From Parcubacteria group bacterium GW2011_GWC2_42_12 (GTDB lineage Bacteria; Patescibacteriota; Patescibacteriia; Patescibacteriales; GWC2-42-12): a DNA stretch of 43,623 bases. The stretch lies in the NCBI GenBank assembly GCA_000997945.1, contig LCCP01000001.1, forward strand, positions 1-43,623, given 5' to 3'. The notes beneath the pieces are model-generated. The model saw only the letters and a list, made by a program, of their open reading frames with translations, was not told the DNA's origin and did not search any database. The translations under genes and the position numbers were made by a program. This document shows, one piece after another, positions 2 to 11,806 of this stretch (position 1 is the stretch's first letter; each line of letters opens with the position of its first letter).

Positions 2-142
2 GCTTGGGAGCTAAAAGCGATTGATAATAAAAAATTCGCCGAATTGGCGGCGCTCTTGGTTGAAATCGGTCGAATGCTGGGCGGCTGGCAAAAACAGCTC
101 ATAAAAGAAACTCCCCCTATTACAGGAGGAGTGAGAAGATAG
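2..142 (+). CDS. avd: C-terminus of an Avd-like DGR accessory protein (partial, cut by window edge)
   Basis: Frame 2 reads AWELKAIDNKKFAELAALLVEIGRMLGGWQKQLIKETPPITGGVRR* ending in TAG at 140-142. The '..L..EIGRMLGGW.K' ending resembles Avd four-helix-bundle proteins, and it abuts a TR. Confidence 0.75.
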   Translation, partial: AWELKAIDNKKFAELAALLVEIGRMLGGWQKQLIKETPPITGGVRR

Positions 143-147
143 TAGCG

Positions 148-270
148 GGAACGAACGAACCGATTGTTGCCGTTGAAGTTGTTGTCGAGGTAATTGAAGT
201 TGAGCACCCACCGCCGGCCATTCCAGTTGAAGTAAGCCACGCGGCGGTTACGGTTATCGTCGAGCAAAAT
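148..270 (-). repeat. DGR template repeat (TR)
   Basis: 123-bp non-coding near-copy of 629-751 (offset 481). 17 of 18 differences are at T on the + strand, i.e. A on the TR strand. Reads as Asn-rich (AAY) codons on the minus strand. Confidence 0.9.
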
Positions 271-489
271 TATGCAAAGTATCGTCCAGTCCACCACCCC
301 TTGAATACTCTTAGGGTTGTATTTTATTCGGGGCCTTTAGCCCGCCAATACTTTGCACCGAGTATCTTCTTTTTCGGATTTACTAAAAATACTCTACCGG
401 AAGCCGTGGCCGCCGATACTCTAATTCTTAGCAATACGAGATGCGGTTGCCTGAAGCCGTGGCCGCAAGCATAATGCCCATCTGCTGGC

Positions 490-495
490 ATTATA
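490..495 (-). promoter_or_regulatory. Candidate -10 box (TATAAT) of a dedicated TR-RNA promoter
   Basis: Minus strand TTTTTTGATATAATGCC, just downstream of the target-gene terminator and about 220 bp upstream of the TR. Confidence 0.4.
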
Positions 496-516
496 TCAAA
501 AAATCAAAATTTTAAA

Positions 517-560
517 CATAAAAAAGACCCGCATCCAGACTTGAAGCCTAAATGCGGGGA
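517..560 (-). terminator. Rho-independent terminator of the DGR target gene
   Basis: Minus strand CCCGCAT...ATGCGGG stem (528-534/552-558) followed by a T run. Confidence 0.75.
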
Positions 561-604
561 AATGCGAAGTGCCGAGGGGCCAGAACCCAAGAAGGACAAA
601 GGGC

Positions 605-1240
605 TCAAGCAACCGAGGGCAACTCGCTGGAACGAACGAACCGATCGCTGCCGCGGAAGTTGCGGTGGAGGTAACGGAAGTAGAGCACCCACCGCCGGCC
701 ATCCCAGTAGAAGTAAGCCACGCGGCGGCCACGGCCACCGTCGAGCAAAACTGTGCGCGGCATAATGAAGTAGTGCTTGCCACGAGACTCAACCGGGAAA
801 ATTTCCTTTCCCTCTTCCTGCTGCTTAAGCTTGGCTGCAGCAAACCCCAAACTGCCGTAAGCGTTGCCCTTGCGAGCGAGCATGGTGTCGCCGCTAATGT
901 AAGTTTCACCCGCCTGAACCGGGCCGGAAGAATAATCCAGATTGGCGAGGTTGATGTCGCCTTCCGGATCGTCCTTCGTTACCTGCCAACCGCTGGGAAC
1001 CAGACCGGAGTTTTGAGCGCGAACCGGGGTGACAATACCGCTGGCTTTCTTGGCGAATCGGACGAGTAGAGCGATCATCTCGTCTTCCAGCTCCGTACCC
1101 GGATAAGCCAAGGCGACTTGGAACAGAGCGGTGTCTATTCCGGCTTTGCGAGCGGCCGCGTTAATGCGGTCGCCGAGTTTTGCGACCTGCGGGTCGGAGG
1201 GTCCATTTACCGATGGGGTTAATGTATTCATTAGCGTCAT
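605..1240 (-). CDS. DGR target (variable) protein, VR at C-terminus
   Basis: ORF 605-1285; likely start at MTLMNTL (1240). The C-terminus ..RRVAYFYWDGRRWVLYFRYLHRNFRGSDRFVRS carries the VR. Confidence 0.85.
   Translation of the reverse strand: MTLMNTLTPSVNGPSDPQVAKLGDRINAAARKAGIDTALFQVALAYPGTELEDEMIALLVRFAKKASGIVTPVRAQNSGLVPSGWQVTKDDPEGDINLANLDYSSGPVQAGETYISGDTMLARKGNAYGSLGFAAAKLKQQEEGKEIFPVESRGKHYFIMPRTVLLDGGRGRRVAYFYWDGRRWVLYFRYLHRNFRGSDRFVRSSELPSVA
629..751 (-). repeat. DGR variable repeat (VR)
   Basis: Aligned to TR 148-270 without gaps; substitutions confined almost entirely to TR adenines. Confidence 0.9.
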
Positions 1241-1500
1241 CTTTCTATTTGTTTGGTTGTTGTTTTTTACCGCGACGACCATCATCGCAGCTTACAGAAA
1301 ACTTATTTCAAATTTCCTAAAAGCCACGATGATCACCAAAATATTGGCTAAATTTAAGGTACGAAACTAAACCTTATTATATACCATAAAATTTAATTTA
1401 TGTCCAGCATTTTAGGTAATTTATGCTAATATTAAACAAAAAGTCAAAAATAAAAGACGGAACTTAACCGCCCTTATTTTTATGGTTATTTTATACAAAA

Positions 1501-2034: not shown

Positions 2035-2059
2035 AAAAAATAATTTATTGGCTTAACTT

Positions 2060-2166
2060 GCTGGACAAGGATATTGGTTTTGAGCGCATACGAAATTGTA
2101 GTAATTTTTGTAATCAAAAATTACCCAAATTTCGTCTTAAGTGAAAAACCAATATCCTTGTCCAGC
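2060..2166. repeat. Long hairpin, 22-bp perfect outer arms plus inner palindromes
   Basis: GCTGGACAAGGATATTGGTTTT (2060-2081) / AAAACCAATATCCTTGTCCAGC (2145-2166). Confidence 0.9.
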
Positions 2167-2200
2167 GATTTTTAATAATATAATTATTTTAAAATCATAC

Positions 2201-4027
2201 CTAACTCCTCTTCTTGTATTTCGTATATAAAACTTGATTTTCCAATTTGCCTTTGGTTTTAAACCAGCGTAAAACTTCAACCGCTTCTTTATTATCATGC
2301 GCTCTTCTAATCTTACTCTTAGCGTCGATCTTATATAACGCCTCTAACCTTTTCTTTCTAATCGCCGCCGTGGTGGGAATCGGCTGACCGCCGCCGCCAA
2401 TACAGCCATCCGGACAAGCCATCACTTCAATATAGTCATAATCCCGCAAATTATCCAACGCCGATTTAATATTACCAATGCCATTTACTACCGCCACTCT
2501 GAATTTTTTATCGCCCATCATCAGCTCCGCTCTTTTTACGCCGGCTAAACCACGCACCTCCTTAAATTTAATCCGAGAATTACAAAATTTTGTTTTTAAC
2601 TTTTCCGCTTTAGTAAAACTGCGGCAAACCGAATCTTGCGCCGTTTGCGTTAAATATTCAGCCGTCCTTAAGGCCGATTCCATCACTCCCCCGCTAGCGC
2701 CATAGATGACCGCGGCCCCGCTAGCCGCGCCCAGAGGATTATCGGCCGGCAAGGGCTTTAAATCCATAAAATCAATCCGATTCTTTTTAATCAAATAAAC
2801 TAACTCACGGGTAGTTAAGCAATAGTCAACCGGCCAATTGCCGCCAATTTTTAATTCTCGGCGGCTAGCTTCAAACTTCTTGGCTGTGCAGGGCATGATG
2901 GAAACGACCATGATATTTTTTGGCTTGATTTTCATCTTCTCGGCCCAATAAGTTTTGATAATGCCAGCGCTATGAATCTGCGGACTCCTCGCCGTCGTTA
3001 ATTTGGGTATTAAATCCGGCCGAAAAAATTCCACATATTTTATCCAGGCCGGGCAGCAAGAAGTAAACATGGGCAAGCCGTTCTCCATAACTCCAGTTTT
3101 TAAACTGGGACTAGGGAGACCAAGACGAAATTCTTTCATTCTCCCAATTAATTCTTCGGCTTCAACCATGGTAGTAATGTCGGCGCCGAAATTCACGTCA
3201 AAAACATAATTAAATCCCAATTTTTTTAAGGCCGCCACTACCTGGCCGGTCATGACTTCGCCGCCTTTAGCGCCGAACTCTTCGCCAATACTAACCCTGA
3301 TTGACGGCGCGAATTGCGCTACCAATATTTTAGATTTATTTTTTAAAGCTTTTTCCACCAATGACCAATGGGCTTGCTCTTGCGCCGCGCTGACCGGGCA
3401 ATATAAGGCGCACTGACCACAATAAATACAGTCAGATTTCTTTTTCCGCTTGTTGATTAAAGCGAAGCCATCCCTCTCGGTCACGGGCACGACTTCTTGC
3501 GTAATTCCTTTGCCCCTAAGTTCTAAATAATTTATTTTCTGTAAAGTATTGCAGGCTTCCACGCAATTACGGCAATCAATGCATTGGCTGCCGTCGATTT
3601 CCACGGCGTTGGCAAATTTATAGATTTTTCTCTTGCTCTTGCGATCTTTAAAAGTAGTAATTTCAATCTTATGCTTATCGGCCAACTCTAAGAGCGCGCA
3701 ATTAAAACGCCGGATGCAAGTCGGGCATCTTTCAATATGTTCGGCGAAGATCAATTCAATATTTAAATTGCGCGAACGTTTAACCCTGGCCGTGTCGGTC
3801 CTGATAATCAGGCCATCACAAACTTCAGTTGAGCAGGAAGTAACTAGATTTTTACAGCCGGAAATTTCCACCACGCAAATCCGGCAATTGGCCTTAACCG
3901 GAAAATCATCATGCTGGCAAAGGCCGGGTATAATCACGCCATTCTCGCGCGCCACCTGCATAATGGTTTTACCGGACTGACAACTTATTCCCTTGCCATT
4001 TAAATTTATTTTAATCTTTTTACTCAT
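2201..4027 (-). CDS. hydA: [FeFe] hydrogenase catalytic subunit with N-terminal 2Fe-2S and 4Fe-4S domains
   Basis: L1 TSCCPAW, L2 MPCTAKKFE, L3 EVMACPDGCIGGGGQP; N-terminal ferredoxin cysteines; CIDCRNCVEAC and CIYCGQCALYCP. Confidence 0.95.
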   Translation of the reverse strand: MSKKIKINLNGKGISCQSGKTIMQVARENGVIIPGLCQHDDFPVKANCRICVVEISGCKNLVTSCSTEVCDGLIIRTDTARVKRSRNLNIELIFAEHIERCPTCIRRFNCALLELADKHKIEITTFKDRKSKRKIYKFANAVEIDGSQCIDCRNCVEACNTLQKINYLELRGKGITQEVVPVTERDGFALINKRKKKSDCIYCGQCALYCPVSAAQEQAHWSLVEKALKNKSKILVAQFAPSIRVSIGEEFGAKGGEVMTGQVVAALKKLGFNYVFDVNFGADITTMVEAEELIGRMKEFRLGLPSPSLKTGVMENGLPMFTSCCPAWIKYVEFFRPDLIPKLTTARSPQIHSAGIIKTYWAEKMKIKPKNIMVVSIMPCTAKKFEASRRELKIGGNWPVDYCLTTRELVYLIKKNRIDFMDLKPLPADNPLGAASGAAVIYGASGGVMESALRTAEYLTQTAQDSVCRSFTKAEKLKTKFCNSRIKFKEVRGLAGVKRAELMMGDKKFRVAVVNGIGNIKSALDNLRDYDYIEVMACPDGCIGGGGQPIPTTAAIRKKRLEALYKIDAKSKIRRAHDNKEAVEVLRWFKTKGKLENQVLYTKYKKRS

Positions 4028-4171: not shown

Positions 4172-5197
4172 TTACATCGCTTTACTTTTCGCCTCCATCT
4201 CCGGCAAAACATTTTCCATAAAACTTTTGATCGGTATAACCACCGAGCTGCCCAGAGCGCAAAAAGAAGTATCGGCCAAATTGTCCAACAAATTATTAAA
4301 CAAAGTCCAATCTGCCTTTTCCGCCAAAAAAATTTCGCGCAGTCGATATATCCCCTCGCGGCAAGGAGTGCATTGACCGCAAGACTCATCAATAAAAAAA
4401 TCGAGCCAACCGGCAATAATTTTTTTATAATTATTTTTAGCTAAGCTATAAATCGTGATTGAGCCGGCGCCCTCTACCGGCCTTTTTAACTGCCGGCTAT
4501 TTAGCGCTTCGCCTGACATATCGCCCCCGACTAAAACAAAAAAATGAAAGCTCGGATAGTTTTTAGTTTGCTTGAGCGTTTTTTCAATGGTAAAACTAGC
4601 TGGTAGTTCATAAACCCCTTCATACGGGCAGTCTCCGGCTATATCATAAAATCTCTTATTGTCATACTGGCCGGAATTAACCAAGCTAATATTATAGAAA
4701 GTTTCAACATTATTTACGAGCGTTGGACATCCCCAGAGGCCGGCCGTCACCGGAAAGGGTGGCTTTAATCTAGGTTCAATTCTTTTACCTTCAATCGCGT
4801 TTAAAACCGCGCTTTCTTCGCCGCCGACATAACCGGACTGGATGGGCTTAACAAATATTTCAATGGCCGAGTCTTTGATCAGCGCGGCTAATTTTTTATT
4901 ATACTTTTTGTTATAACTATAATTCAAAAATAAATAGCCTTTTTCTGCCAAAAAAAAATCAATGGCAATTTTCAGGCCAGCAATTACTTTTTCCGCGTAA
5001 TTTTCCAAAATATAGCCATCCTTGGTTAACCCCGGTTCGCCTTCGGCCGCATTACAAACGACATAGCATTTTCTTCCGCCGACTTCTTTATCCGCCAAAG
5101 CTTCGGCCACGGCGGACCACTTCTTGGCCACGGAAAACCCCGCGCCGCCGCGCCCGACCAAATTGGCCTTCCTAATTTTGTCTAGAATCTTGTCCAT
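4172..5197 (-). CDS. NADH-binding (NuoF/HydB-like) hydrogenase subunit
   Basis: GRGGAGF, AAEGEPGLTKD, GGEESAVLNAIEG, ESCGQCTPCREG motifs. Confidence 0.9.
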   Translation of the reverse strand: MDKILDKIRKANLVGRGGAGFSVAKKWSAVAEALADKEVGGRKCYVVCNAAEGEPGLTKDGYILENYAEKVIAGLKIAIDFFLAEKGYLFLNYSYNKKYNKKLAALIKDSAIEIFVKPIQSGYVGGEESAVLNAIEGKRIEPRLKPPFPVTAGLWGCPTLVNNVETFYNISLVNSGQYDNKRFYDIAGDCPYEGVYELPASFTIEKTLKQTKNYPSFHFFVLVGGDMSGEALNSRQLKRPVEGAGSITIYSLAKNNYKKIIAGWLDFFIDESCGQCTPCREGIYRLREIFLAEKADWTLFNNLLDNLADTSFCALGSSVVIPIKSFMENVLPEMEAKSKAM

Positions 5198-10006: not shown

Positions 10007-10252
10007 CCTTAATTTCAGGCAAGAGTATTGATGTCGAACTGTCTGTCGTAGTAAACGGCGCTTGGCCGCCCGGGCATGTACGATGGATAACCGCCACTTG
10101 CTCTTGCCTGTTCCATTCGCGAGCGTTGAAAAGCAGACACTATGTCCTTAGGACAGGGTGCGCAACATGCGAGGACGAAGTAGTTTGATTCAGCGCTCGC
10201 CTCCTCTATAAAATTTTCAAGCCGAAAAATCGTAAAAATTATTTTATATTTT

Positions 10253-10543
10253 ATGAAGAAAGACCTCCATCCCAAATATTATTCGGAAGCCAAAGTAACT
10301 TGCGCCTGCGGTAACGCGTTCACCACCGGCTCAACCTTGCCGGAGCTTAAGGTAGAAATATGTTCAATCTGCCATCCCTTCTACACCGGCAAACAAAAGT
10401 TAATTGATAGCGCCCGCCGCGTGGAGAAATTTAAAGCCAAAGTTGAAGCCAAAGCCAAAACTAAAACTACCCATAAGAGCAAACGAGCCAAACTCGTGGC
10501 CAAAACCAAAGCTAAAGCAGATAGAAAAACCGAAAAAAAGTAG
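10253..10543 (+). CDS. rpmE: 50S ribosomal protein L31 with Lys/Ala-rich tail
   Basis: [42 protein letters not shown]. Confidence 0.95.
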
Positions 10544-10548
10544 CCATT

Positions 10549-10617
10549 TAAAACGGTTATTCTTTTCGTTGTGCTATAATATGCTTATAGCATAGCCGGA
10601 GGAATAACCGTTTTTTA
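10549..10617 (+). terminator. Rho-independent terminator after rpmE
   Basis: AAACGGTTATTC...GAATAACCGTTTTTT. Confidence 0.75.
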
Positions 10618-10618
10618 A

Positions 10619-10762
10619 TGTCATTGCGAGGAGGAGCGACAGCGACGACGCGGCAATCTCTGGTTAAAAAGTACTAAAAATTTGAGCGGTAATAAAATTA
10701 TTAAAATATTTTGACCAGAGATTGCTTCGCCGTCTTGAGTACAAGGACGGCTCGCAATGACA
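10619..10762. mobile_element. MITE/REP-like element (TCATTGCGAGGAG family)
   Basis: TGTCATTGCGAGGAG...CTCGCAATGACA terminal inverted repeats. Confidence 0.8.
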
Positions 10763-10771
10763 ATGATAATT

Positions 10772-11806
10772 ATGTATTCGGCTATTAAACAAAAATTTAA
10801 AGATTTAGAGAACCGGCTAAGCGATGCGGCTGTAATCTCCGACCCGAAAAAGCTTAAAGAAATCTCCAGACAGTATAATGGGCTCAAAGAGATGATTGGG
10901 TTAATTTTAAAATTGGAAAAAAAACAGATCCAACTAAGCCAAAATGAAGAAATGATTAAATATGAGTCCGACATCGAGCTAGTAAAAATTGCCAAAGAGG
11001 AAATTCTAGGATTAAAACGGCAAAGCGAAGAATTAACCAATCAAATTGAAGCCGAACTCCACCCGGCCGACCCGAATGATAAAAAGAACGTCATTATGGA
11101 AATTAGGGCGGGCGCGGGCGGCGATGAATCGGCTCTATTCGCCGCCGAACTATTCCGGCTGTACTCAAGATTCGCCGAACGGCAGGGCGCCAAACTGGAA
11201 ATCCTCTCAACCAACCGCATCGGCATCGGCGGCTACAAAGAAATTATTTTCTCCATCGCCGGCCAGCATATCTATGGCGACCTGAAATATGAAGCCGGCA
11301 CGCACCGCGTGCAAAGAGTGCCGGAAACGGAAAAAGCCGGCCGCGTCCATACTAGCGCCGTAACCGTCGCGGTCATGCCCGAAGCCGAAGAAGTTGATCT
11401 GGAAATAAAACCGCCAGACATTAAAATTGACACTTTTTGCTCTTCCGGGCCGGGCGGACAAAGCGTTAATACGACTTATTCGGCTGTCAGAATCACCCAT
11501 CTGCCAACTAATTTAGTCGTTACCTGCCAAGACGAAAAATCACAGCATCAAAACCGTGAACAAGCCCTGCAAATCTTACGTTCTCGGCTCTTAGCCAAAA
11601 TGGAGGCAGAGAAACGCGCCAAGGAATCGGCCGAAAGAAAACAACAAATCGGTACGGGCGATCGCAGCGAAAAAATTCGCACTTATAATTTCCCCCAGGA
11701 TCGCTTTACCGATCATCGCCTGAAACAGAATTGGCACGGCCTCAGGAGGATTATGGACGGCGATATTGGGGAAATTATTAAAGCGCTTAAAAAAGTGACG
11801 AAATAA
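10772..11806 (+). CDS. prfA: Peptide chain release factor 1
   Basis: GGQ motif [23 protein letters not shown]; followed by prmC. ORF from 10757; start probably MYSAIKQ. Confidence 0.9.

Follow-up and report, generated by a model that had tools for sequence, protein, structure and literature searches.

A Patescibacteria diversity-generating retroelement with a structured leader in front of its template repeat and a probable stand-alone template RNA gene

Of the natural machines for programmed adenine hypermutation, diversity-generating retroelements (DGRs) are the best known, and most of what is understood of how they work comes from a single phage. The Patescibacteria (CPR), a group of ultra-small bacteria, provide the locus studied here: the first 43,623 nucleotides of contig LCCP01000001.1 (C1) of Parcubacteria group bacterium GW2011_GWC2_42_12, hereafter the window, open with an apparent DGR cut by the contig edge.

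An ungapped scan for adenine-biased repeats pairs a template repeat (TR) with a variable repeat (VR), both on the minus strand (Table 1), that differ at 18 of 124 positions, with 17 of these differences falling on TR adenines. Given 29 A in the 124 nt of the TR, the chance of placing at least 17 of 18 differences on A is 2.4e-12 (hypergeometric). A general repeat search returns the same pair (145-275 and 626-756, 85% identity). An earlier sequence-only reading of the locus had reported this gapless alignment, counting the 17 differences at T of the plus strand, and it is reproduced here with boundaries shifted by 1 nt. In the target frame 10 of the 11 AAY codons are altered (to G, G, Y, D, Y, R, R, R, S and D), a single AAC is unchanged and the sole non-A change converts GAC to CAC, the same numbers as had been given for the Asn codons. 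The target ORF is open through the VR (605-1285, minus strand, 226 codons), so that the VR forms the C terminus of the protein, again as proposed; the likely start is the codon at 1240 (MTLMNTLTPS), judged from its equivalence to the start in the related locus L035. Pfam and NCBIfam profile searches gave no match for the target protein, and a structure model (pLDDT 68.5) in which a C-type lectin fold was sought gave no significant match in the PDB. In L035 itself (3486-4007) the target has a stop early in the VR and the allele looks truncated.

Table 1. Positions of the DGR features in the window
Feature	Position	Strand	Basis
Avd C-terminal 46 residues, antisense to template RNA, rest beyond contig edge	2..142	+	PF22296/NF033474; 91% to L035 Avd
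Intrinsic terminator of template RNA, overlapping the avd end	102..132 (hairpin 110-132, T-tract 102-109)	-	hairpin and T-tract search
Clamp 3' strand (TATCTTCT), in TR 3' flank	134..141	-	pairing tests across loci
Template repeat (TR)	148..271	-	adenine-biased repeat scan
Leader core (model R1), three-way junction P1/P2/P3	270..383	-	112.4 bits; covariation over 58 loci
Clamp 5' strand (AGAAGATA), directly before conserved ACUYGG	363..370	-	pairing tests across loci
Leader hairpin H2, H1-type loop motif, flanked by AGAGU	395..418	-	alignments; sub-threshold Rfam RT-7 match
Leader hairpin H1, loop motif GRYYAMGGYT	449..470	-	alignments of about 65 loci
Promoter-like -10 box TATAAT of template RNA	490..495	-	box upstream of H1 across loci
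Terminator-like hairpin and T-tract after target gene	519..558	-	14 pairs, CCCGCATTTAGGCTTCAAGTCTGGATGCGGG then TCTTTTTTAT
Target gene, diversified protein with C-terminal VR (probable start)	605..1240	-	ORF list; L035 start at equivalent codon
Variable repeat (VR)	629..752	-	adenine-biased repeat scan

At the left edge the plus strand encodes AWELKAIDNKKF...GGVRR*, the end of an Avd, which scores 22.9 bits against PF22296 (bAvd) and 25.2 bits against NF033474 (Avd) over the last 28-30 model positions; as a fragment it stays below cut-off, and the full-length Avd proteins of L035 and of contig C16 of the same genome exceed that of PF22296. The neighboring Avd that had been suggested is therefore present. 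L035, from a Parcubacteria group bacterium, is the nearest relative of the window cassette (91% identity in the Avd fragment, 72% in the target) and keeps an intact reverse transcriptase (RT) at the expected place. The RT of the C1 cassette was not found in its own assembly (1.03 Mb, 48 contigs) using PF00078, the C16 RT and the L035 RT as queries, C1 ending inside avd. On C16 the same genome carries a sister DGR with all its parts (target, TR, antisense avd and RT; locus L006). It also has a second RT, split over a 97-nt overlap of contigs C31 and C14, and a third, of which a C-terminal piece opens contig C9 (C9:2-226, L103); none of these RTs can be assigned to C1. The C9 fragment might be part of the window cassette, but it is only 63% identical to the L035 RT whereas the Avd ends are 91% identical, and for this reason no continuity of C1 with C9 is claimed. 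The C16 and L035 RTs are RVT_1 proteins with the motifs LGNLTSQ and YADDF. The C31/C14 element (C31 8217-9254 and the start of C14; L008 and L007) has a single repeat copy, its target frame entering the TR site directly, before a terminator and antisense avd; the R1 leader described below is absent, the locus looks as if VR and TR had recombined, and an (AG)n run lies in the RT near C14:180-200. Adenine-specific TR/VR variation, a C-terminal VR, an Avd, the Patescibacteria genome, the complete sister on C16 and the intact RT of L035 together bear out the identification as a DGR, and on this sequence evidence a genuine chromosomal DGR of a Patescibacteria bacterium is supported.

One GTDB scan with the C16 RT as query gave 80 loci, nearly all labelled Patescibacteria, and about 100 related copies were compared in total. 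Adenine-specific TR/VR pairs were found by the repeat scan in 68 of 83 sequences, the TR being the downstream copy on the RT strand, ~350 nt after the VR; among 38 further loci, 655 of 679 TR/VR mismatches fall on TR A. The order target with VR, ~350-nt leader, TR, terminator, antisense avd and RT is kept in 66 of 67 related loci, as counted by HMM searches for avd and RT behind the TR with the window left out. The single exception, L067, carries two DGRs.

VR and TR are separated by a conserved structured RNA made up of two hairpins with YAMG-type loops, an ACUYGG joint and a three-way junction; the outer stem of this junction, P1, closes at the first TR base. Over 58 loci, 20 of the 23 pairs of the leader core show compensatory (double) changes, and 96.8% of its cells are paired, compared with 76.2% after shuffling and 34-49% after sliding of the partners. 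The evidence for the fold is this covariation, the thermodynamic stability of the whole window RNA being unremarkable (z -1.2). The covariance model R1 built on the core scores the C16 leader at 112.9 bits, close to the window. Among 290 Patescibacteria genomes, 48 contain R1 sites, and every one of these 48 also has a relative of the C16 RT. Outside the genome of the window an RT lies downstream on the same strand in 52 of 61 R1 sites (median 536 nt, 51 of them at 479-593 nt).

No Rfam family matches the leader at its gathering score in the window or related loci, and RF03022 is found neither in the window nor in 24 related loci. Below threshold, RT-16 reaches 23.8 bits in the window (gathering score 50) and RT-7 matches H2 (360-425) with 28.1 bits (E 8e-5, gathering score 116.8); across 40 genomes about ten R1 sites are overlapped by RT-16 matches, none of which reaches the gathering score. 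The H1 loop motif is also found in the BPP-1 spacer, RT-15 and RT-7. The R1 model finds cassettes even where no RT is nearby. R1 leader sites of this kind include L104, L105, L106, L107, L108, L109 and L110. Of these, L106, L107 and L110 have full adenine-specific TR/VR pairs, and the sequence retrieved around them shows neither RT nor Avd, a pattern consistent with a self-contained RNA unit that could be served in trans. In L092 leader and TR are duplicated ~5.9 kb apart (4318-4898 and 10240-10820), with an RT seen by the first copy only.

The leader strand directly before the ACUYGG joint is complementary to a strand in the 3' flank of the TR (consensus AAAUGAAGA and UCUUCAUUU, respectively), a pairing that we term the clamp. 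The two strands change together, reading AGAAGATA/TATCTTCT in the window, AAGTGAAGC/GCTTCACTT in L077, AAAAACAGA/TCTGTTTTT in L054 and TCCAAAGAAA/TTTCTTTGGA in L095. Native pairing exceeds 20,000 of 20,000 swaps of strands among loci (z 9.0), a test that takes no account of kinship; since the swaps leave relatedness in, the argument is carried by the specificity of the register and by repetition out of sample. The signal peaks at its own register only, with 7.5 of 9 pairs against ~5-6.4 at shifts of at least 10 nt, and it repeats in 38 loci of other genomes that were fetched afterwards (z 5.9), where at least 8 of 9 pairs form in 18 of 37 compared with 0-4 at shifts of at least 10 nt. Some loci have no clear clamp. 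A local hairpin in which the clamp strand would pair with its own surroundings instead was rejected as a general feature (score 10.3, compared with 9.5 in shuffles). With the clamp at one side and closure of P1 at the other, the RNA would hold both ends of the TR.

Read on the minus strand, the window presents the target terminator (528-558), a perfect TATAAT, H1, H2, the first clamp strand, the core, the TR, the second clamp strand and a terminator, in that order. Of 44 loci that allowed the test, 40 have a -10-like box upstream of H1, against 20.7 in shuffles with a box counted anywhere in the 70 nt, and the boxes cluster 31-36 nt from the H1 loop. Behind the TR, a terminator-like hairpin with T-tract occurs in at least 55 of 68 loci at a median of 12 nt (~15 nt in the window) and in 28 of 38 independent loci; about 10 of the 68 have no clear terminator. 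Because the RNA appears to stop here, a spacer of the BPP-1 kind 3' of the TR is absent in R1 loci. The covariation of the leader, its own -10-like box and the clamp thus suggest that the template RNA has a gene of its own, in which the folded domain precedes the TR.

Taking the adenine-specific variation, the gene order, the leader fold, the clamp, the positions of terminator and -10 box and the 5' placement as established by sequence comparison, we consider it highly probable that the window carries a chromosomal Patescibacteria DGR in which a stand-alone ncRNA gene of ~380 nt supplies the template RNA, and that it works as follows. The RNA would start after the -10 box located between target gene and H1 and would fold into the two hairpins and the three-way junction that ends at the first TR base. 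Once the TR is transcribed, its 3' flank would pair onto the leader, leaving the TR as a loop with both ends held, and transcription would stop within the 3' end of avd. The RT-Avd complex would bind the leader, cDNA would begin at a nucleotide of the ACUYGG joint beside the clamp, and the TR would be copied with random bases opposite A, the cDNA then replacing the VR in the target gene. The binding, the starting point and ongoing activity of the window copy are what we infer.

That the C1 copy is instead decayed or without an RT of its own, either a fossil or driven in trans by the RT of C16 or C31/C14, appears unlikely. It would fit the lack of a visible RT beside the cassette, the leader-TR-VR cassettes of L106, L107 and L110 with no RT or Avd nearby and the rearranged look of the C31/C14 copy; yet the Avd end is intact, the VR lies in an open frame and the leader is preserved, as are clamp, terminator and -10 box, while L035 keeps its RT and C1 simply ends inside avd.

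A second alternative, which we regard as distinctly improbable, is an ordinary BPP-1-like DGR in which recruitment of RT-Avd and priming of cDNA fall to a 3' spacer located between TR and RT, the leader serving as no more than a regulatory 5' UTR. It draws on the known systems. In BPP-1 the order is avd, TR, a 144-nt spacer and brt, with RF03022 fitting the spacer at 104.7 bits; according to the summary in a recent paper, the spacer recruits RT-Avd, and biochemistry has located priming at an internal adenine within it (PMC12875486). BalMu-1 and ACA1 likewise have their recognised RNA domain, RT-14, just 3' of the TR, the ACA1 match being slightly below gathering score. In the window and its relatives, however, a terminator follows the TR after ~12-15 nt and antisense avd comes next, the covarying structured RNA stands in front of the TR, and the RT-16 matches in about ten R1 sites overlap that leader. 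The window shares with BPP-1 the adenine-mutagenized TR/VR, the Avd, a structured RNA adjacent to the TR and a hairpin loop motif (GCUACGGC), and its relatives C16 and L035 share the DGR-like RT, but in BPP-1 the domain is 3' of the TR and avd lies in sense upstream of it. The labels "BPP-1 type" and "textbook" used in the sequence-only reading therefore do not suit this layout. Finally, a duplicated coding sequence diverged by ordinary mutation, to which the mere presence of two 85% identical repeats might point, deserves practically no credence and is refuted by the mutation spectrum, 17 of 18 changes lying at A in a bias that recurs in more than 100 loci.

The placement of the domain in front of the TR is also seen outside the Patescibacteria, so that a 5' layout unique to the CPR was ruled out. 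In the Pseudomonas phages Cruim01 and LPPA56 an RT-15 RNA at gathering level lies directly 5' of an adenine-specific TR, as in R1 (L117, RNA 2711-2903 and TR 2901-3004; L118, RNA 2677-2867 and TR 2866-2965). RT-15 and R1 have in common the hairpin loop, CUGG before the outer stem and closure of the outer stem at the TR, whereas the phages have no R1 match, a sense avd, a TR that runs into the start of the RT and no terminator after the TR. An Asn-rich, TR-like repeat comes immediately after an RT-7 RNA in G073, with no VR to confirm it. RT-7 and RT-16 overlap H2 or R1 sites, but with all Patescibacteria matches below gathering score these loci are not members of the families as drawn. A clamp in the RT-15 phages was not above shuffles in the region tested, and in L117 an 8-nt complement straddling the TR end was spotted by eye only. 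For BPP-1 itself, a 7-bp pairing of the TR tail (AUCACCU) with AGGUGGU in the spacer just before A56 was equalled by shuffled tails in 149 of 300 cases and is kept as a lead only; among seven other phages of the 3' type only phiARM81mr stands out, weakly (21 of 300).

With the RNA 3' of the TR in BPP-1 and RT-14 and 5' of it in R1, RT-15 and RT-7, there appear to be two topologies of DGR RNA. On an RT tree, a branch with support of 98/85 splits all RTs of the 5' type, L067b (the second DGR of L067) and G073 included, from the phages of the 3' type and ANMV-1, and the R1-group RTs are supported at 100/100; the bootstrap is rough, the branches are long, and L067b, labelled 3' in the run, and G073, labelled "other", were both re-read as 5' afterwards. 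In L067b a stretch of 174 nt lies between avd and TR, and the cassette has a 9-bp clamp at roughly the distance seen in the R1 group. The two DGRs that adjoin in this Patescibacteria contig (4023-5966 and 7652-9677) are unlike, one having R1 and an antisense avd and the other a sense avd and a TR abutting the RT. In our reading, rather than by a statistical test, the BPP-1 spacer has its modules (hairpin, priming region, small hairpin, AUACA and terminal stem) in an order that resembles that in the CPR leader, a likeness suggesting that the template was relocated relative to one ancestral domain. We give about even odds to a wider reading in which DGR RNAs are of two permuted types, with the recruiting and priming domain either 3' of the TR (BPP-1, RT-14) or 5' of it with the TR end clamped back in retron-like fashion (R1, RT-15, RT-7); as these types divide the RT tree, a single relocation of the template would have split the family, and the 5' type would prime from its leader.

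The likeness to retron msr-msd RNA, in which a structured 5' domain is followed by a template whose end pairs back onto that domain, concerns RNA layout only; the window has the protein and repeat content of a DGR, and the sister RT scores 54.7 bits of the 235 needed against the retron St85 RT model, and no membership is claimed. Knowledge of Patescibacteria DGRs goes back to 2017 (Paul et al., cited in PMC12875486), and a DGR clade restricted to this phylum has been described (Roux et al. 2021, PMC8144416). Clade 2 of that study resembles the present group in its Patescibacteria-wide RTs, chromosomal location and targets without recognisable domains, a likeness of features rather than of tree placement, and a search of that paper by terms returned nothing on RNA architecture. 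No account of a 5'-leader template RNA gene with clamp and terminator was found in the papers that the search covered, and we provisionally regard the RNA gene as new and the DGR itself as an already-known kind of element. A phylum-wide class with a compact, separately transcribed template RNA and its control domain in front would redefine the DGR RNA and would account for the orphan Rfam families RT-7, RT-15 and RT-16. Such a class would also offer a simple two-part RNA, a leader with a swappable template, and would make the priming of cDNA directly testable in vitro.

Elsewhere in the window (2036-2190), between a membrane-protein-like ORF and a hydrogenase-like ORF, lies a long inverted repeat with 46-nt arms that are 76% complementary and 63 nt apart, together with a second, nested pair.
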